Source: a virus
Reading direction: 5' to 3' (one strand)
DNA length: 22,758 bases
Virus record (IMG/VR): IMGVR_UViG_3300025127_000304
Coordinates: 1 to 22,758 of that record
Below the pieces are notes generated by a model. It was not told the DNA's origin, searched no databases, and saw only the letters and a program-made list of their open reading frames with translations. A program made the position numbers and the translations under genes. This document shows positions 7,251 to 16,815 of this stretch, piece after piece (position 1 is the first letter of the stretch; every line of letters begins with the position of its first letter).

Positions 7251-7952
7251 ATGGCGAATTCAACATCAGCTAACCTAAAACTCACAGTCCAAGCAACCGG
7301 TGAAAACTCGGGAACATGGGGACAAATTACAAATACAAATCTATTAATTCTAGAACAAGCTATTGGTGGTTTTACAACTTTTAACGTAACTAATGCGAGT
7401 AGAGCTCTTACTTTTAGTAATGGTGCTTTATCTAATGGTAAGAACGACGTAATTAGATTAACAGGCACCTTGGCTGGAAACTTAAACGTAACAATACCAG
7501 ATTCTATAGAAAAAACTTATATTGTACAAAACGACTGCGATCACGCAGGAAATACATTAACTTTTAAAACTTCATCTGGAACTGGAGTTTTACTATGTGA
7601 GGGTAATTGTTATATTTTATATTCTGATGGTACTAATGTAGTTAAAACAAACGAATATAGAAAGTGGAGAGCAGTATCTGCCGCTGAAACAGTTCAAGCA
7701 GGGGCAAAACTTTTGGTAAACACAAATGGTGGCGGAGTAACCATTACACTACCTGCATCACCAGCAACGGGTGATGAAGTTTCTTTTGTGGACCAAGGTT
7801 ATGATTTTAATTCTAACGCATTGACTGTCGGTAGAAATTCTTCTAATATAGCTAATGCAGCATCTGATCTTGTAGTTAACACACAAGGCGCAGCTTTTTC
7901 ATTAGTATTCTCAGGAGATGCTACAACAGGATGGACTTACACGGAGAAATAA
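7251..7952 (+). CDS. Tail fibre-like protein, 233 aa
   Basis: The protein opens with STSANLKLTVQATGENSGTW followed by GQITNTNLLILEQAIGG, a signature I know from fibre-like proteins of marine phages and cyanophages. The rest is beta-rich with Gly and Asn turns (NLNVTIPDSI, NTLTFKTSSG, GGGVTITLPASPATGDEVSF) and closes with a W in the last six residues. Two similar halves may exist, both containing a V-T-I-x-x-P pattern (NVTIPD near residue 80 and TITLPA near 164). It has an AAGGA site and is followed at once by the collar fibre. Role: part of the host-contact apparatus, inferred. Confidence 0.7.
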   Translation: MANSTSANLKLTVQATGENSGTWGQITNTNLLILEQAIGGFTTFNVTNASRALTFSNGALSNGKNDVIRLTGTLAGNLNVTIPDSIEKTYIVQNDCDHAGNTLTFKTSSGTGVLLCEGNCYILYSDGTNVVKTNEYRKWRAVSAAETVQAGAKLLVNTNGGGVTITLPASPATGDEVSFVDQGYDFNSNALTVGRNSSNIANAASDLVVNTQGAAFSLVFSGDATTGWTYTEK

Positions 7953-7953
7953 T

Positions 7954-8535
7954 ATGTCAAATTACGAAGCAACAAAATACGATTTTTCTGGAGCAAACCT
8001 TACTGGTATCGAAGGAATTCCAACGGCGACTATTGTGCCATGGTCTTCTTCATCAGTGCCAACAGGTTTTTTAGAGTGTAATGGAGCAGCAGTTTCAAGA
8101 TCTACATACTCTGCATTATTTGCTATTGTAGGTACAACTTATGGCGCTGGGGACGGTGCATCAACCTTTAATTTACCTGATCTACAAGATAACGTGGCAA
8201 TGGGTAAATCTGGAACTAAAGCTCTGGCATCAACGGGTGGAGCAAACACAGTTTCTATAACCGCTACAGGTAACATTGGAGGAACCACTGCAAACGCAAC
8301 TCTTTCAACCTCACAACTTGCCTCTCACACTCACCCAGCCTCTACTGGCTCCGGTGCTTTTCAAACTAACCCTGGAGGATCTTTAGGAACAGCTACTAAA
8401 CCTGGAGGAAGCACAGGTAGTACTGGATCAGGCTCAGGTCACTCTCATAACATGAGTGCAACATTTAGTGGAGATGCGGTATCAGGGGCGATACTTCAAC
8501 CTTATTTAACAATTATTTACATAATTAAGACATAG
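7954..8535 (+). CDS. Tail-collar-domain fibre protein with HxH metal motifs
   Basis: I take the ATG at 7954, which has GGAG seven bases upstream, over an in-frame ATG 12 codons earlier that lies inside the preceding gene. Residues 22-85 match the phage tail collar domain (IVPWSSSSVPTGFLECNG, then YGAGDGASTFNLPDLQDNV). The C-terminal half has two His-x-His motifs (125-127 in SHTHP and 163-165 in GHSHN) within a Gly/Ser/Thr-rich stretch, and ends in ILQPYLTIIYIIKT. In T4 short and long tail fibres HxH pairs bind zinc or iron at the trimer tip, so a trimeric metal-bound receptor-binding tip is likely here. Confidence 0.8.
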   Translation: MSNYEATKYDFSGANLTGIEGIPTATIVPWSSSSVPTGFLECNGAAVSRSTYSALFAIVGTTYGAGDGASTFNLPDLQDNVAMGKSGTKALASTGGANTVSITATGNIGGTTANATLSTSQLASHTHPASTGSGAFQTNPGGSLGTATKPGGSTGSTGSGSGHSHNMSATFSGDAVSGAILQPYLTIIYIIKT

Positions 8536-8543
8536 GAGAAAAA

Positions 8544-8918
8544 ATGGCAACTAACGCAAATTGGACAGTAGTATTTGAAGACAAATGTATTATTAAAAAT
8601 TACGCAGAAGGTGCTTCTGAAGGTATTGGTTATGTAATTTCTGATGATTCTTTTTGGTCTGATTCTAAGTTTTCTAATATTTGGGCTATTCAATACGGAA
8701 CATCTACACCTTCTGACGAAGTAGAGTATAGAGATGGAACTCAACATACAACTTATGCAGATGCAAACCTAGGTGATATCAGTCAATTCTCTTCTAAATG
8801 GGACGCTGCTCACTTAGCTCAATTACAATCTGATTGGGATAATGATAACGTTGAAGGTGAAACTTCAGATGACAAAGTTGCTAGACTTGGGGCTAGACCA
8901 ACTTCTTATTCTTCATAA
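8544..8918 (+). CDS. Small acidic tail-associated protein, 124 aa, unknown
   Basis: An AGGAG site lies eight bases before the ATG and eight bases after the collar gene. The protein is acidic and aromatic, with WTVVFEDKCIIKN at the start and WAIQYGTSTPSDEVEYRDG in the middle, and a charged helix-like end (AHLAQLQSDWDNDNVEGE). It resembles small proteins found after collar fibres in marine phages, possibly a fibre chaperone or cap, but this is inferred. Its last 13 bases overlap the 3' end of the reversed oxygenase block, so no separate terminator fits between them. Confidence 0.65.
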   Translation: MATNANWTVVFEDKCIIKNYAEGASEGIGYVISDDSFWSDSKFSNIWAIQYGTSTPSDEVEYRDGTQHTTYADANLGDISQFSSKWDAAHLAQLQSDWDNDNVEGETSDDKVARLGARPTSYSS

Positions 8919-9412
8919 TCTTCTATAAACAAGGTTGCAGTATATCTTTTAAGATTTACAACTTCACTTTTGTGAGGGGAATGAATCCAATTAGACGGAA
9001 ATAAAACAGCCCTGTTTTCTCTAAAACCTATGTGAATATCTAATTCACCTTTTGTATAAAAAACAATTCCATTAGTTACTGCAGTGGGTCCACTGATCAT
9101 TATAAGAGCATTTAATTTAGAAATTGTTACATCATCATGTGGAATAAAATGACTTAAATTTCTTTGATCTATCCCTGAACTGTGTTGTATGTTATTAATT
9201 TTAATATTAAATTTTTTTTCAAGTTGTTTAGTAAATATTTTTTCAATCTTAGGTTGATCAGTAAAATACCATCTATTACCATAAAAATTTTCTTTATTTT
9301 TTTCTGTGGTGCCTTCAAGAAAACAAGGTGAATAAAAAGCTTTATTCAAAGTAAAATCTTGTACAATTTTTAAATCATTTTTTTCAAAAAAATTATCTAA
9401 TACTTTAATCAT
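8906..9412 (-). CDS. 2OG-Fe(II) oxygenase-like protein 1 (HxD type), last gene of the reversed block
   Basis: This 168-residue protein would hydroxylate an unknown substrate using Fe(II) and 2-oxoglutarate. The double-stranded beta-helix core is visible: H92-x-D94 in HFIPHDDVT as the first iron ligands, VLFPSNWIHSPHKS with the distal histidine (H144 or H147), and R156 in LKRYTATLF as the 2-oxoglutarate anchor. It is near the minimum length for the family, so an accessory domain is absent. Its start shares one base with the stop of the upstream gene (TAATG), so it is translated last in a coupled four-gene unit. Substrate cannot be read; virion protein, tRNA or metabolite are all possible. Confidence 0.75.
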   Translation of the reverse strand: MIKVLDNFFEKNDLKIVQDFTLNKAFYSPCFLEGTTEKNKENFYGNRWYFTDQPKIEKIFTKQLEKKFNIKINNIQHSSGIDQRNLSHFIPHDDVTISKLNALIMISGPTAVTNGIVFYTKGELDIHIGFRENRAVLFPSNWIHSPHKSEVVNLKRYTATLFIEDYEE

Positions 9413-10002
9413 TATTTAAGCATCATCCAAGAAGTTAGAATATATTTTTTACCAGACAATGGTGGATTACCTCTGTGCACATAAGGAAAAGCTGCAGGCC
9501 AAATAACTATTCTTCCAGTTTTAGGTTTTACTCTTTTTGAAAAATGTAAAAATTCTGTTTCACCACCTTCTTCTACATCATTTAAATAAATGGTAAAAAC
9601 TAAAACCCTTGATGAATAATAAAAACCTGGCATATGTTCAACATGCCAGAGATGATAACCTTGAGTGGGTAGGGTTTTTTGAATTTTAAAAGTTGTATAA
9701 TCTAGATCGGGGTAAAAATCACCTATCCCTGTATTATCTACATAATGTTTTAACGCAATTTCATAATTTACTTTTAAAACTTTTACATCTTTCCACCATA
9801 CATCTATATTATCTGGGGCTGCAAAAAATTGCAGATCTTGTTTTTGCGTTAATTTCGCACCTTCAAAAACAGATCTGTTAACGGTTTTATTAAATTTGTT
9901 TTGATTTTCAAATAATTGAATTGCTTTATCACACTCTTCTTTAGTAATATAATTATCATACACTCCAATAAAGTTAGTAATGTTTATTGTTTTTTCTTTC
10001 AT
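9412..10002 (-). CDS. 2OG-Fe(II) oxygenase-like protein 2 (HxE variant)
   Basis: Using the ATG at 10002 (196 residues; AGGAG ten bases upstream; a GTG at 10005 is an alternative), this is a prolyl-4-hydroxylase-like protein. The core reads YHLWHVEHMPG, RVLVFTIYLNDVEEGGETEF, KPKTGRIVIWPAAFPYVHRG and GKKYILTSW. The iron site appears to be H120-x-E122 with distal H176: Glu replaces the usual Asp. This WH-x-E version is one I know as recurrent in marine phage oxygenases. Lys185 or Lys186 would take the 2-oxoglutarate-binding place held by Arg or Lys in the family. The start overlaps the upstream stop as TGATG. Substrate unknown. Confidence 0.8.
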   Translation of the reverse strand: MKEKTINITNFIGVYDNYITKEECDKAIQLFENQNKFNKTVNRSVFEGAKLTQKQDLQFFAAPDNIDVWWKDVKVLKVNYEIALKHYVDNTGIGDFYPDLDYTTFKIQKTLPTQGYHLWHVEHMPGFYYSSRVLVFTIYLNDVEEGGETEFLHFSKRVKPKTGRIVIWPAAFPYVHRGNPPLSGKKYILTSWMMLK

Positions 10003-10535
10003 CACTCTTTTTCTCCTGTGGTTTTAGAACATTTATCATAAGCAAAGCTTGCATATGGACCATTTCTATCTACGTAATGAAAAAAAACTTGAGCCATTCC
10101 ATCACCTTTATATGTTCCAGGTCTTCCATGTTTTTGATCACAACCAGCATATAGTAAACCATCTCCCTCTTCTAGTTCTAAAATATTATTCTCTATTACA
10201 AAAGGCCAATCATCATATTTTTTTATACAGGCACTAATAGAAATTTCACATGATGGTCTGTCGGTATGTGTTTCTAAGGTTGCGCCAAAGATATAGTATC
10301 TCCAGTAGGCATAAGTTGGAAGTAATTCTAAACCTGTTTCTTTTTTCATTAAATCTAATTTTAAATCTAAAAAGGAAGTCATTAAAGAATCTTTATACCA
10401 AGAAGGTGAAAAGGATTGGCCATCTAATTGATATCCTGTATCAGAATCTAACTGATAATAGCAATAAGGCTGCAATATACTTAACTCTTCTTTTGAAAAA
10501 AAATTTTTAATAATTTTAAAATTTACTGAAGCCAT
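10002..10535 (-). CDS. 2OG-Fe(II) oxygenase-like protein 3 (divergent)
   Basis: This 177-residue protein has an oxygenase-like core: YWRYYIFGATLETHTDRPSC with H90-x-D92, ISISACI, then LELEEGDGLLYAGCDQKHGR with a likely distal H136, and AQVFFHYVDRNG. The usual Arg about ten residues after the distal His is not seen; R138 or Q149 may substitute, so 2-oxoglutarate binding is less certain. The pattern resembles a phage oxygenase subgroup with WRxY and a C-terminal H-Y-V-D. Its start lies 13 bases inside the end of the upstream gene; an AGGAG site is 18 bases away, which is far, so coupling probably matters. Confidence 0.65.
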   Translation of the reverse strand: MASVNFKIIKNFFSKEELSILQPYCYYQLDSDTGYQLDGQSFSPSWYKDSLMTSFLDLKLDLMKKETGLELLPTYAYWRYYIFGATLETHTDRPSCEISISACIKKYDDWPFVIENNILELEEGDGLLYAGCDQKHGRPGTYKGDGMAQVFFHYVDRNGPYASFAYDKCSKTTGEKE

Positions 10536-11071
10536 GATACTATGCTATATCTCACTCCTTTTGTTATTGGCGTTATACTATGTGGATACATAAAATTACT
10601 TGGAAAAAAAACTATAGATCCTTTTCCAAGTTTTATTGTTTTAAGTTCAACTTTTTTTTGATTAGTAAATATTAAATCACCACCTTCATACCCTTCATTT
10701 AAATTTATTATTACACTTAAACTTCTAACGTTATCAGTAAAGTGATCAGTATGAACTTCATATTTTCCCCCCATTGAATATTTTAGTAAATCTATTTGAT
10801 TTATTTTACTACTGGTCATCATTGGAAACTTAGCCTTATAAAAACCATACACTCTGGTTATCTCGTGTTTAACATAGTTCCAATAAAATAAATTAGTTGG
10901 AGTTTTAAAATCCAATTGATAACCTTTTACATTCCTTATTTTTGTATTTATATCACCTAAACCAACTGTAAGATTTTTATTTGCCCTCTTATCTATAAGG
11001 GAAATTATTTTTTTAGAAAAATCAGGGTTTATTATATTTTTTAATTCAACAATAGCTTCCAAATGATCCAT
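10523..11071 (-). CDS. 2OG-Fe(II) oxygenase 4, prolyl-4-hydroxylase-like; first gene of the reversed block
   Basis: This 182-residue protein has the clearest family signature of the four: LLKYSMGGKYEVHTDHF with H107-x-D109, SLSVIINLNEGYEGGDLIF, GKGSIVFFPSNFMYPHS with distal H164, and GVRYSIVSW with R174. These give the full Fe(II) triad and the 2-oxoglutarate anchor at the standard spacing. It is closest to the P4H-type 2OG-FeII_Oxy families, and its N-terminal 85 residues are the usual helical support. It lies next to the divergent promoter region at 11072-11118, so it heads the minus-strand transcript. The family hydroxylates proteins in many systems, but the substrate here is unknown. Confidence 0.85.
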   Translation of the reverse strand: MDHLEAIVELKNIINPDFSKKIISLIDKRANKNLTVGLGDINTKIRNVKGYQLDFKTPTNLFYWNYVKHEITRVYGFYKAKFPMMTSSKINQIDLLKYSMGGKYEVHTDHFTDNVRSLSVIINLNEGYEGGDLIFTNQKKVELKTIKLGKGSIVFFPSNFMYPHSITPITKGVRYSIVSWLQ

Positions 11072-11075
11072 TATA

Positions 11076-11104
11076 TTGATACTTTCATTCTCTATATTTT
11101 TAAT
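11076..11104 (+). promoter_or_regulatory. Candidate promoter for the gp10-like gene
   Basis: TTGATA (11076-11081; 5 of 6) and TTTAAT (11099-11104; 5 of 6) are separated by exactly 17 bases. Some promoter is needed here because the 8918-11072 region is transcribed mainly on the other strand. A start near 11111 leaves only about eight bases before the ATG at 11119 and no ribosome site, implying a leaderless message if this promoter is real. Confidence 0.45.
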
Positions 11105-11113
11105 ATATAAAGC

Positions 11114-11141
11114 ACTATATGCTACAAAAATTAAATTTCAA
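11114..11141 (-). promoter_or_regulatory. Candidate promoter for the reversed oxygenase block
   Basis: On the minus strand TTGAAA (11141-11136; 5 of 6) and TATAGT (11119-11114; 5 of 6) are separated by 16 bases. A start near 11107 would give a leader of about 35 bases to the ATG at 11071. The elements overlap the first codons of the + strand gene and face the candidate promoter at 11076-11104, so the two would interfere. Confidence 0.45.
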
Positions 11142-13083
11142 GGCTGGGTTTAACAAACAAGATACTGAATCAGGGGCTGAAGGTCAATGGACTGATGGTG
11201 ATTTTGTTAGATTTAGGTATGGGTTACCAGAAAAAATAGGTGGTTGGTTACAATTAACTGCAGGTAATAAAACTTTACCAGGAGCAGCTAGGGCTCAGGT
11301 AGCTTTTACTAGTTTTTCAGGAGAAAAATATGCAGCCATTGGAACATCACAAGGTTTATTTTTATATTATGGAAATGATTTTTATGATATCAGTCCATTA
11401 GATACAGCAATCACAGGGTGCACTCTTACCACCGTAAATAATTCAAACGTTGTTACAATCAACAAAGGATCTCATGGATTAGCTGTAGGAAGGTACATTA
11501 CTTTATCTGGTGTAACAGTCACTGGAGCTAGTGCATTTACAGCTGCAGACTTACAAAAAACTTATGAAATATTAACGGTGCCTGATATCGATAAATTTAC
11601 GATACAAGCAGCTAGTGTAGAAACAGGTTCTGGAATGACTGCTGCTGGAGCTGCAACAGTTAATCCCTATGTCATTGTTGGACCAACCACTCAAACAACC
11701 GGATATGGATGGAGCACATCCACTTGGAACACATCCACTTGGGGAACGGCTAGAGCAACAAGTGATGTTGTTTTAGATTCAGGAAACTGGAGTCTTGATA
11801 ATTTTGGTGAAGTATTAGTAGCTACGATCTTTAATGGAGAAACTTTTACATGGGACGCGGGAGCATCTAACGCTAGAACAATTAGAGCATCTCAATCTAC
11901 GTCAAATTTTCAAACCACTAACAATCCAACCGCCACTAGATTTACATTAGTCTCAGACAGAGACAGGCATTTGTTTCACTTTGGAACTGAAACAACGATT
12001 GGTGATCCAACCACACAAGATCCCATGTTTGTAAGATTTTCTAATCAAGAAGATCTTAATACATATGCACCCACAGCCACTAATACAGCGGGTACTTTTA
12101 GATTAGATACAGGTAATGAGATTAGAGCAGCTATTCAAGGTAAAGACTATGTTTTTGTAATAACAGATTTAGCAGCCTATGTAATACAATTTGTAGGTCC
12201 ACCATTTACTTTTTCAGTTAGACAAGTGGGCACAAATTGTGGATGTATAGGTCAACACGCAGCCTCTTATGTTAATGGAGCCGTGTTTTGGATGGGAACA
12301 CAAGGAGGGTTTTTTGCATATGACGGAACAGTTAAATCTTTACCATCTCTTGTGGAGGATTTTGTTTTTACAACCGATGGAACTAACCTAGGATTAAATT
12401 TTGGTTCTAGTGATGTTATATTTTCTGGATCAAATAATTTATACACGGAGGTTAATTGGTTTTATGCAAAGGATGGCTCTGATCAGATTGATAGGTGTGT
12501 GACATATAATTATGCAGAAAATTGTTGGACTACCTCTACTTTAGATAGAACTACATATCAAGATCAAGGTGTGTTTGACAAGCCTTATGCCACTGATTAT
12601 GAAGACACACTCACGCCTGTTTTTCCAGACATTTTAGGAATAACAAATAAGTACGGAGCCTCTATATATTACGAACATGAAACTGGCACCGATCAAGTTA
12701 ATAGCACATCCACAACTGCTATACCTGCATTTATTAGATCTGGTGACTACGACATAACTTCTAGAAGAAGTGCTTTAGGCCAATCAACTGGTGTGGTTGA
12801 TTATAGAGGAGACGGAGAGTTTATTATGTCTGTTAAAAGATTCATACCTGATTTTAAATATCAAGAAGGAAATGCTAAAATAACCCTTTTTGTGAGTGAT
12901 TTTCCTGATGACACTCCAGTTAGTTCTCCACTTGGACCCTTTACAGTTACATCAACAACTGATAAAGTAGATACCAGAGCAAGAGGAAGATTAGTATCTC
13001 TTAGAATAGAAAACGAATCTGTGGGAGAAACATGGAGATATGGGACTCTTAGACTAGATGCTCAACCAGATGGTAGAAGATAA
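11119..13083 (+). CDS. Packaged-DNA stabilisation / tail nozzle protein, P22 gp10-like
   Basis: This 654-residue protein begins with MLQKLNFKAGFNKQDTESGA and FRYGLPEKIGGW, the N-terminal signature of the P22 gp10-like stabilisation family, which forms the nozzle below the connector ring and holds packaged DNA. Residues about 100-182 are an inserted beta domain (KGSHGLAVGRYITLSG) of a type common in phage structural proteins. Residues 196-209 hold W198, W203 and W208 at five-residue spacing, encoded by a short direct repeat. The rest alternates beta strands in propeller-like fashion (RHLFHFG, YVFVITDLAAYVIQFVG, VFWMGTQGGFFAYDG). No ribosome site is seen before the ATG. It is cut off from the other neck genes by the reversed oxygenase block. 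Its stop overlaps the next start (TAATG). Confidence 0.8.
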   Translation: MLQKLNFKAGFNKQDTESGAEGQWTDGDFVRFRYGLPEKIGGWLQLTAGNKTLPGAARAQVAFTSFSGEKYAAIGTSQGLFLYYGNDFYDISPLDTAITGCTLTTVNNSNVVTINKGSHGLAVGRYITLSGVTVTGASAFTAADLQKTYEILTVPDIDKFTIQAASVETGSGMTAAGAATVNPYVIVGPTTQTTGYGWSTSTWNTSTWGTARATSDVVLDSGNWSLDNFGEVLVATIFNGETFTWDAGASNARTIRASQSTSNFQTTNNPTATRFTLVSDRDRHLFHFGTETTIGDPTTQDPMFVRFSNQEDLNTYAPTATNTAGTFRLDTGNEIRAAIQGKDYVFVITDLAAYVIQFVGPPFTFSVRQVGTNCGCIGQHAASYVNGAVFWMGTQGGFFAYDGTVKSLPSLVEDFVFTTDGTNLGLNFGSSDVIFSGSNNLYTEVNWFYAKDGSDQIDRCVTYNYAENCWTTSTLDRTTYQDQGVFDKPYATDYEDTLTPVFPDILGITNKYGASIYYEHETGTDQVNSTSTTAIPAFIRSGDYDITSRRSALGQSTGVVDYRGDGEFIMSVKRFIPDFKYQEGNAKITLFVSDFPDDTPVSSPLGPFTVTSTTDKVDTRARGRLVSLRIENESVGETWRYGTLRLDAQPDGRR

Positions 13084-15035: not shown

Positions 15036-16019
15036 ATGAAAATAAGAAACCAAAGCCCTAAGGGTGGAACAGAACTACAATTTGAATATTTAGAAAAACA
15101 CGTAGATAAAAGTTTGTTAGATCAAGTGCAGATATGCACTTCGGTTCCAGAAAAAATACCATTACATCCAACCAAACCAAATATTCTTTGGCAAAAAAAT
15201 TCCTATGATCAACCTAACTTATTCCCTTGGTTTAAGAACCCAGCTAATCACAGTAAGTATGATTGGTATGTGTTTAATTCTCATTGGACTTATGAAAAAT
15301 ATAGAAATCATTTTAACATTCCTACTAATAAATGTGTGGTTATAAAAAATGGTATAGATAAAATAGAAAAATCTACACCTTATCAAGAAGGAAACCAGAT
15401 AAAAATAATTCATCAAAACACACCATGGCGTGGCTTATCTGTATTACTAGGTGCCATGCAATTAGTTAAGAATCCTTTAATAACTCTAGATGTCTATTCT
15501 TCTACCGAAGTTTATGGAAAAGACTTTTACGATCAGAATGATAAATATTACAAAGAACTTTACGAGCAAGCAGAGGCTTTACCTAATGTAAACTACATAG
15601 GATACAAGCCTAATAGATACATAAAAGAAAATTTAAAAAATTATCATATGTATGTTTATCCTAGTATTTTTGAAGAAACTTTTTGCATATCTTTATTAGA
15701 ATGCATGGCAGCCGGTTTATATTGTATAACTACAGACTTTGGTGCTTTGTATGAAACAGGTGCGGAGTTTCCAATGTATATTCCTTATGAGGATAATAAC
15801 AGAGCGTTGGCTCAAAAATTTGGTTTTGCAATAGAACAAGCAGCTAAAACTATGCATGCAAAACAAATACATAACCATTTAGAATCTCAATCAGCCTACG
15901 CCAACGTTTATTATAATTGGGGTAAAGTTGCAATTCAATGGACAACATTTTTAAAAGGAGTAATAGATGCAAGATCCAAATCAGCCGATATGGTTTACGA
16001 GCCACGAAAAGAAAGGTAA
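15036..16019 (+). CDS. GT-B-fold glycosyltransferase, GT4-like
   Basis: This 327-residue protein transfers a sugar from an activated donor to an unknown acceptor. The GT4-type signature is clear in the C-terminal half: IKIIHQNTPWRGL (residues 123-134, donor-site loop), PNVNYIGYKP near 183-192, then YPSIFEETFCISLLECMAAG with the E214-x7-E222 motif, followed by ITTDFGALYE. The N-terminal half has QSPKGGTEL, often seen at the start of GT4 enzymes, and VFNSHWTYEKY. Length is short but complete. It is preceded by oxygenase 5 and overlaps the next glycosyltransferase by 53 bases. There is no signal peptide or membrane segment, so it acts in the cytoplasm. Confidence 0.85.
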   Translation: MKIRNQSPKGGTELQFEYLEKHVDKSLLDQVQICTSVPEKIPLHPTKPNILWQKNSYDQPNLFPWFKNPANHSKYDWYVFNSHWTYEKYRNHFNIPTNKCVVIKNGIDKIEKSTPYQEGNQIKIIHQNTPWRGLSVLLGAMQLVKNPLITLDVYSSTEVYGKDFYDQNDKYYKELYEQAEALPNVNYIGYKPNRYIKENLKNYHMYVYPSIFEETFCISLLECMAAGLYCITTDFGALYETGAEFPMYIPYEDNNRALAQKFGFAIEQAAKTMHAKQIHNHLESQSAYANVYYNWGKVAIQWTTFLKGVIDARSKSADMVYEPRKER

Positions 16020-16815
16020 TGTAAAAACAATACATCTTGGAGAATCGCCTTACAAGATAATGGTATGCACACCTGTGCATAGCGATGTTTCTATGCATTA
16101 TTGTCAAGCCGTGTTAAAGTTTCAACAAGCTTGTATTAATAATAATATTTTAGTTAGTTTTACTTTAATGAAATCATCATTGGTAACACAAGGAAGAAAC
16201 CTTTGTGTGGCTGAAACTTTAAATCATATAGATGGATATACACACTTATTATTTATCGACTCGGATATTGATTTTGATTTTGAAACAATAGAAAAAATGT
16301 TAAACGCAGATAAAGATATAATCTCATGTCCATATCCTATGAAGTCTTTTGATTGGGATAAGGTTTGGAGTCAAAAAGATAAAGCTAAATCAGTACGAGA
16401 ATTAAAAGCACCAGGTTTAACTTTTCCTATAAAACTAGAAGATCAAGAACACATTGCTTCAGATAAGGGAATAGTTGAAGTAACTCATGCTCCTACAGGC
16501 TGTATGTTAATTAAAAGAACTACGTTAGAGAAAATGATAAAACATTACCCTGAGCTAGAGATATTTCAACCAACTAATATAAATGGTAAAGAGGTTAAAA
16601 AACAAAATTTTTATAACTTTTTTGATACAATCCACGACCCAGAAACTAAACGTTGTTTTGGTGAAGATTTTGGTTTTTGTCAAAGGTGGACAGACATGGG
16701 TGGTAAACTATACATTTATATAATGGATTACATAAGCCATGTAGGAGAATACCAATATTCTGGTAGATTTTTTGATAACTTAAAACCTGTTGACGATAGT
16801 AAAAAAATCAAATAA
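15967..16815 (+). CDS. GT-A-type glycosyltransferase-like protein
   Basis: The start is well supported by AGGAG seven or eight bases upstream of the ATG, although it lies 53 bases inside the preceding gene. Motifs along the 282 residues: IMVCTPVHSD (31-40), QGRN (75-78), LLFIDSDIDF with the D98-S-D100 metal/nucleotide-sugar motif, KDIISCPYPMK (116-126), APTGCMLIKR (175-184), and ED233-234 in FGEDFGFCQRW as the likely acceptor-side acidic pair. This matches a family of phage and bacterial GT-A enzymes of uncertain sugar. It is soluble. Together with the GT-B enzyme and oxygenase 5 it forms a modification cassette inside the virion genes. Confidence 0.8.
   Translation: MQDPNQPIWFTSHEKKGNVKTIHLGESPYKIMVCTPVHSDVSMHYCQAVLKFQQACINNNILVSFTLMKSSLVTQGRNLCVAETLNHIDGYTHLLFIDSDIDFDFETIEKMLNADKDIISCPYPMKSFDWDKVWSQKDKAKSVRELKAPGLTFPIKLEDQEHIASDKGIVEVTHAPTGCMLIKRTTLEKMIKHYPELEIFQPTNINGKEVKKQNFYNFFDTIHDPETKRCFGEDFGFCQRWTDMGGKLYIYIMDYISHVGEYQYSGRFFDNLKPVDDSKKIK

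Follow-up and report, generated by a model that had tools for sequence, protein, structure and literature searches.

A fixed slot of exchangeable 2-oxoglutarate oxygenase genes around one constant member in the tail module of HTVC027P-like pelagiphages

Multiple genes for 2-oxoglutarate (2OG)-Fe(II) oxygenases in a single genome are already known from pelagiphages and cyanophages. Clustered 2OG genes have been noted in HTVC023P-type pelagiphages, where a "ferrochelatase" is always accompanied by an adjoining 2OG oxygenase and the two are read as an iron/heme partnership (PMC9599517). Nine 2OG copies are reported for cyanophage S-SZBM1 (PMC9146016), and phrog_61 (2OG oxygenases) and phrog_2954 are two of the three gene categories enriched in seasonal viral populations (PMC11561400). 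Here we analyse the IMG/VR virus record IMGVR_UViG_3300025127_000304 over 22,758 nucleotides (the window, a 22.8-kb fragment), in which four minus-strand open reading frames (ORFs) at 8906-11071, P1 to P4, form a block in the middle of the tail module. Within the phage collection, Pelagibacter phage HTVC027P is the best relative of the window, with 78.7% identity across a third of it; the window is from a relative of this pelagiphage, a virus of SAR11 bacteria. The block occupies a fixed slot, bordered by a tail-collar/gp71-like gene on one side and a virion gene on the other; it is one of the states that this slot takes, and P2 is constant there.

A comparison with HTVC027P (MN698241) shows that its genes gp72-gp74 are also arranged as an antisense slot, between gp71 and gp75 and with the same leader motif, and gp73 is the P2 orthologue with 70% identity. 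In contrast to the window, this slot contains three genes only; gp72 and gp74 belong to clusters 8 and 1 of the slot proteins, and P1, P3 and P4 are missing. The "2OG-Fe(II) + ferrochelatase partner" auxiliary metabolic genes of HTVC023P-type phages (PMC9599517) resemble the window in that 2OG genes are clustered and a P3-family "ferrochelatase" stands beside one of them. However, that paper interprets P3 as a heme enzyme and regards the 2OG genes as non-adjacent, while we find a single block at a fixed site with one constant gene. In cyanophage S-SM1 (GU071094) about eight 2OG-type genes, including P2-, P4- and P3-like ones, lie within 6 kb (genes 051-061), but S-SM1 is a myovirus, its genes are in the same sense and the identity is low. 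Given these and the nine copies of S-SZBM1, a sequence-only reading of the window understates the cyanophages when it credits them with single oxygenases. To be noted, the slot organisation, the constant core, the correction for P3 and the capping partners described below appear to be new relative to the open-licence papers searched.

All four block ORFs are 2OG-Fe(II) oxygenases, as the sequence-only reading had proposed. Profile searches, its suggested check, bear this out in part: P2 and P4 score above the cut-off of Pfam PF13640, while P1 stays below it and P3 has no match in the Pfam search. A lack of match for two or more of the four would have refuted the sequence-only reading; because Pfam missed P3 and nearly missed P1, both were taken to structure prediction. 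Their homologues were gathered from viral contigs, aligned, folded with AlphaFold2 (predicted local distance difference test scores of 94.2 for P1 and 88.6 for P3) and compared with the PDB by Foldseek. P1 gives 276 matches, the best (9e-8) being an oxygenase; P3 gives 345 matches at E<=1e-3 with a best value of 1.6e-6, including PiuC, PHD2 and prolyl 4-hydroxylase (P4H). Judged by their names, the 50 best matches of each all belong to the 2OG oxygenase superfamily. The double-stranded beta-helix, whose absence from predicted structures would also have counted against that reading, is thus present for both P1 and P3; for P2 and P4, which were not folded, this fold is assigned from PF13640 only. 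The H-x-D/E pair and distal His described for each protein are invariant among the homologues, at H92/D94/H144 of P1 (89/89), H120/E122/H176 of P2 (162/162), H90/D92/H136 of P3 (104/104) and H107/D109/H164 of P4 (112/112). A basic residue past the distal His is equally invariant in P1 (R156), P2 (K186) and P4 (R174), and is absent from its usual position in P3. The dN/dS (nonsynonymous to synonymous rate ratio) of the block genes is 0.21-0.34, therefore the four genes are under purifying selection. Pairwise similarity is detectable for P2 and P4 alone (35% over 76 aa), in line with the earlier view that the four enzymes are different and not recent tandem copies of each other.

Searched against the PDB, the P2 profile (A5) finds six matches, all of them P4H chains (3.4e-9 to 2e-5), including Bacillus P4H and the viral PBCV-1 vCPH. 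The identity to these bacterial and viral enzymes is low, and the H-x-D motif of P4H is replaced in P2 by H-x-E, which is invariant in the 162 homologues; we therefore name P2 P4H-like and not P4H. In P4H a Lys stands ten residues after the distal His, and K186 of P2 stands likewise. The P2 length of 196 aa is counted from ATG and would be 197 aa with an alternative GTG. P4 is closest to the NCBIfam PKHD-type/YbiX hydroxylase models, with 3.7e-16, below their cut-offs.

P3 deserves separate attention. Its family phrog_2954 carries the name ferrochelatase, as do HTVC023P gp67 and several cyanophage genes. A ferrochelatase identity of P3 is contradicted by the 2OG-oxygenase fold and the invariant H-x-D...H, and P3 has no match to the Pfam ferrochelatase family, since it has no Pfam match at all. 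A genuine ferrochelatase is also about twice as long as P3. The BFVD matches of P3 include the "Ferrochelatase" of S-SM1, which has the same fold; a sequence search of the PDB with P3 returned chance matches only. Thus the phage "ferrochelatase" (phrog_2954, phrog_3531) is a mis-annotated family of 2OG oxygenases, and the name, wrong for phrog_2954, is used in two ecological papers (PMC9599517, PMC11561400). In place of the usual Arg or Lys after the distal His, P3 has an invariant R138 (H-x-R) and a nearly invariant R79, which suggests an atypical cosubstrate anchor at R138/R79.

P3 and P4 are found together well beyond the window. P4 is directly upstream of P3 in 92 of 103 P3 homologues, and some of the others are possibly cut by contig ends. 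In the cyanophage ACG-2014f homologues of both are fused into one protein of 362 aa (AIX29050.1, phrog_3531) which, unlike the block, is located among nucleotide-metabolism genes. S-SCSM2R also has a P3-P4 fusion, with glycosyltransferases and a radical-SAM maturase coming after it; the cluster around this fusion holds several glycosyltransferases, a sugar epimerase, an aminotransferase-type enzyme and an amidinotransferase. Of the earlier proposal that the four enzymes may differ in substrate or work one after another, the pairing and the fusion support a joint action for P3 and P4. P3 relatives occur in 35 genome contigs, some evidently phage. The cellular ones mostly share 28-41% identity and come from unrelated bacteria, none from SAR11.

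A second mis-annotation looks to be the name "DNA endonuclease (V)" of phrog_274 and phrog_2297, which match 22/43 and 8/43 of these 2OG proteins. The "denV" of S-SM1 (L246:2592-3080) has the H-x-D and a distal His and no Pfam match.

To follow the slot in other phages, relatives of the window were sought by means of the virion gene on its right; of 405 such relatives the nearest 80 were retrieved. P2 is present in all 72 loci with a readable slot, counting the window and HTVC027P, and is the only gene in 24 of them. A larger set of 177 complete slots combines nearest-relative loci with loci added via P3 and P1, so some overlap and many were chosen by P1 or P3. These slots hold 1-9 genes each in 76 arrangements, and P2 occurs in 177/177. 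The genes are antisense in 632 of 647 cases, P1 is the last gene in 65 of the 70 slots that contain it, and P4 and P3 are adjacent in 77 of 80 slots holding P3. In HTVC023P, which is more distant, this slot lacks a P2 orthologue. In the window itself the antisense block of four inside the tail module is as previously described, with overlaps of 1 base for P1/P2, 1 base for P2/P3 and 13 bases for P3/P4. The idea of a portable cassette that is present or absent as a unit does not hold: synteny reveals a permanent P2, a P4-P3 pair, and P1 and other genes that come and go.

Turnover of the slot was measured in 94 non-redundant loci. The block content is uncorrelated with how far the virion gene on the right has diverged (Mantel r -0.05), and the mean Jaccard distance of content is already 0.87 at 2-5% amino-acid divergence. 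P2 is fixed, and the accessory genes are exchanged fast and nearly freely.

Between the virion gene and the first gene of the block lies a leader of mostly 44-47 nt with the motifs TTATATATTA and AATGAAAG. It is common to most loci, independent of which gene is first; the cassettes therefore change behind a fixed leader. A sigma-70-like TTGAAA-16-TATAGT is found at 11141-11114. Since a scan for sigma-70 promoters gave fewer matches than shuffled sequences and was not above chance, the putative promoter rests on the conservation of the leader. TTATATA-type motifs alone are no commoner than chance in the window or in HTVC027P, and what is distinctive is the combined element in the leader. From this conservation we infer that the leader is probably the promoter of the block.

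Table 1. Oxygenase genes of the window, the slot that holds them and its surroundings
Feature	Position	Strand	Evidence and remarks
Tail collar protein	7918..8535	+	PF07484 3.6e-22; upstream of slot
gp71-like gene	8544..8918	+	Left boundary of slot; 13-base tail-to-tail overlap with P1
P1, 2OG-Fe(II) oxygenase, 168 aa	8906..9412	-	PF13640 0.004, AlphaFold2/Foldseek and invariant ligands; adjoins gp71-like gene
P2, prolyl-4-hydroxylase-like 2OG oxygenase, 196 aa	9412..10002	-	PF13640 4e-11; phrog_61 7.9e-46
P3, 2OG oxygenase, 177 aa	10002..10535	-	phrog_2954 7.5e-41; AlphaFold2/Foldseek fold
P4, PKHD/P4H-type 2OG oxygenase, 182 aa	10523..11071	-	PF13640 4e-17; partner of P3
Divergent leader, putative promoter/leader	11072..11118	-	TTATATATTA at 11101-11110, AATGAAAG at 11082-11089
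Virion structural protein, HTVC027P gp75 homologue	11119..13083	+	phrog_3287 3.8e-80; right boundary of slot
P5, fifth 2OG oxygenase, 178 aa	14496..15032	+	PF13640 8.6e-8; optional gene
Glycosyltransferase family 1-type protein	15036..16019	+	PF00534 2e-15; constant in relatives
Glycosyltransferase-like protein	15967..16815	+	phrog_1574; weak Anp1 match; constant in relatives

The slot proteins of the relatives form 24 clusters at 35% identity. Most are of the double-stranded beta-helix/2OG type (PF13640, PF13759, PF13661, JmjC_2/cupin), with clusters c18 and c22 matching JmjC_2; the remaining clusters are sulfotransferase-like, methyltransferases and one displaced collar gene. Outside the clusters there are several O-carbamoyltransferase-type genes, one methyltransferase, one 2OG protein and two genes with no Pfam match. 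The carbamoyl-, sulfo- and methyltransferases of the slot could serve for the capping of hydroxyl groups. Two accessory 2OG proteins (L053:910-1761 and L073:3309-4151) carry an N-terminal DUF6817, with 1.8e-22 for the same protein in L054. Downstream of the slot, both glycosyltransferases of the window recur in 25/25 loci that are long enough to tell. The fifth oxygenase P5, which the sequence-only reading had missed, ends 3 bp ahead of the first glycosyltransferase gene, and its relatives are found within the block slot of other phages. Upstream, HTH and HSH motifs (SHTHPAS, GHSHNM) occur in the tail collar protein; motifs of this kind bind metal ions in some tail fibres.

Clues to the substrate come from other contexts of these genes. 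Two cellular P3 neighbourhoods were read closely, L284 and L270; the other relatives are in varied surroundings. In Dyella (L284, 1-8338) the P3 relative lies with a radical-SAM/SPASM peptide maturase, a C39 peptidase-ABC exporter, one or more 2OG oxygenases and a MacB/FtsX permease. By their gene content, this locus and its Xanthomonadales relatives L280 and L275 are probable clusters of the RiPP type (ribosomally synthesized and post-translationally modified peptides). In Citrobacter (L270) the P3 relative is accompanied by a JmjC_2 protein, a RiPP-type cytochrome P450 and a GNAT protein. We considered the block of the window as a RiPP maturation set and rejected this, as the overlapping genes leave no space for a precursor and such a context is seen at the cellular relatives of P3 only.

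On the phage side, a sense-oriented 2OG gene of HTVC023P is flanked by the gene of a Gly-rich tail protein and by a homologue of the right-hand virion gene, and the S-SM1 block follows shortly after fiber and Gly-rich genes. In the phage-like contigs L251 and L269, P4-P3 stands directly or closely ahead of a virion gene of the phrog_3287 family. The contig L269 (1-6719, filed as a Maricaulis metagenome-assembled genome) has a carbamoyltransferase, 2OG genes, a tryptophan halogenase, P4, c8, P3 and then the virion gene; it adds halogenation to the set of enzymes. A polypeptide has moderate support as the probable substrate, and a tail or virion protein as that polypeptide has weaker support.

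The reading we prefer, tentatively and at somewhat less than even chances, is that the block is a state of a combinatorial locus by which HTVC027P-like pelagiphages modify a protein, most likely a tail or adhesin component. P2 would provide the constant hydroxylation step and the accessory oxygenases, here P1, the P4-P3 pair and P5, further oxidations. The new hydroxyl groups would be capped by the constant glycosyltransferase pair and, elsewhere, by the carbamoyl-, sulfo- and methyltransferases, and the target would be a tail or adhesin component encoded by the flanking genes. The accessories would be reshuffled by homologous exchange, for which P2, the neighbouring virion genes and the common leader would serve as anchors. 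Closely related phages would then differ in surface chemistry and may escape receptor or defence matching. The analysis establishes the enzyme class, the fixed slot with its constant P2, the pair module, the fast turnover, the shared leader and the kinds of partner enzymes; the capping sequence, the exchange mechanism and the adaptive purpose (escape or host range) are what we infer here. The fuller version, a combinatorial post-translational decoration with a constant hydroxylase and glycosyltransferases and exchangeable oxygenases and capping enzymes (with the halogenase in a relative), giving chemically different tails, is rather doubtful. Several points weigh against the preferred reading. 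The block content shows no covariation with the collar protein and a weak one with gp71. The P3 relatives of P-SSM7 and ACG-2014f lie among replication and nucleotide genes, not tail genes. The antisense orientation suggests a timing separate from the virion genes, which is needless for an enzyme acting on a virion protein, and the capping transferases could act on glycans equally well.

Glycan tailoring is the strongest rival, unlikely as we consider it: the enzymes would tailor a glycan or small molecule, such as a host polysaccharide or sugar precursor, and thereby alter the host surface, for example excluding other phages. The constant glycosyltransferase pair, the carbamoyl-, sulfo- and methyltransferases within the slot and the sugar-related cluster around the S-SCSM2R fusion all fit this, whereas the protein prolyl-hydroxylase-like families of P2, the peptide-maturation clusters of P3 relatives and the position of the slot inside the tail module do not. 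The window also has no nucleotide-sugar genes, a weak point as it is a fragment. A smaller chance is given to the modification of host proteins, translation factors or ribosomal proteins, for host takeover. The fold matches include a Pseudomonas P4H solved in complex with EF-Tu, and JmjC_2, matched by the accessory clusters c18 and c22, is a family of ribosomal oxygenases. However, these family matches are weak, a very rapid reshuffling in one clade is ill-suited to conserved translation targets, and the block is tied to virion genes and glycosyltransferases. Repair or hypermodification of DNA seems very unlikely. It would agree with an older proposal based on cyanophage 2OG genes near uvsX/uvsY/uvsW (quoted in PMC9146016) and with base-hypermodification genes elsewhere in HTVC023P-type phages (PMC9599517), but the four proteins have no AlkB-type or TET/JBP match in Pfam, apart from a weak sub-threshold Oxygenase-NA match of P4, their families are P4H/PKHD-like and the slot is in the virion module. 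The published view of the pair, with P3 as a ferrochelatase and the block as an iron/heme module, retains almost no probability: the annotation of phrog_2954 and of GenBank records and the co-occurrence reading in PMC9599517 and PMC11561400 are already contradicted by the fold of P3, its H-x-D...H and its lack of a Pfam ferrochelatase match.

HTVC023P-type pelagiphages abound in the ocean, and in this clade the members of phrog_61 and phrog_2954 belong to one block and one enzyme class. A vague list of auxiliary metabolic genes thereby becomes a question that can be tested on a cultured phage, with gp72-gp74 of HTVC027P as the model: what is the target of the constant hydroxylase, and what is the effect of the exchangeable set on host range or escape from defence? 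The locus suggests that the virus applies chemical decorations to its own tail or some other surface and renews them time and again. If this is true, such a decoration locus would be a chemical analogue of antigenic variation.

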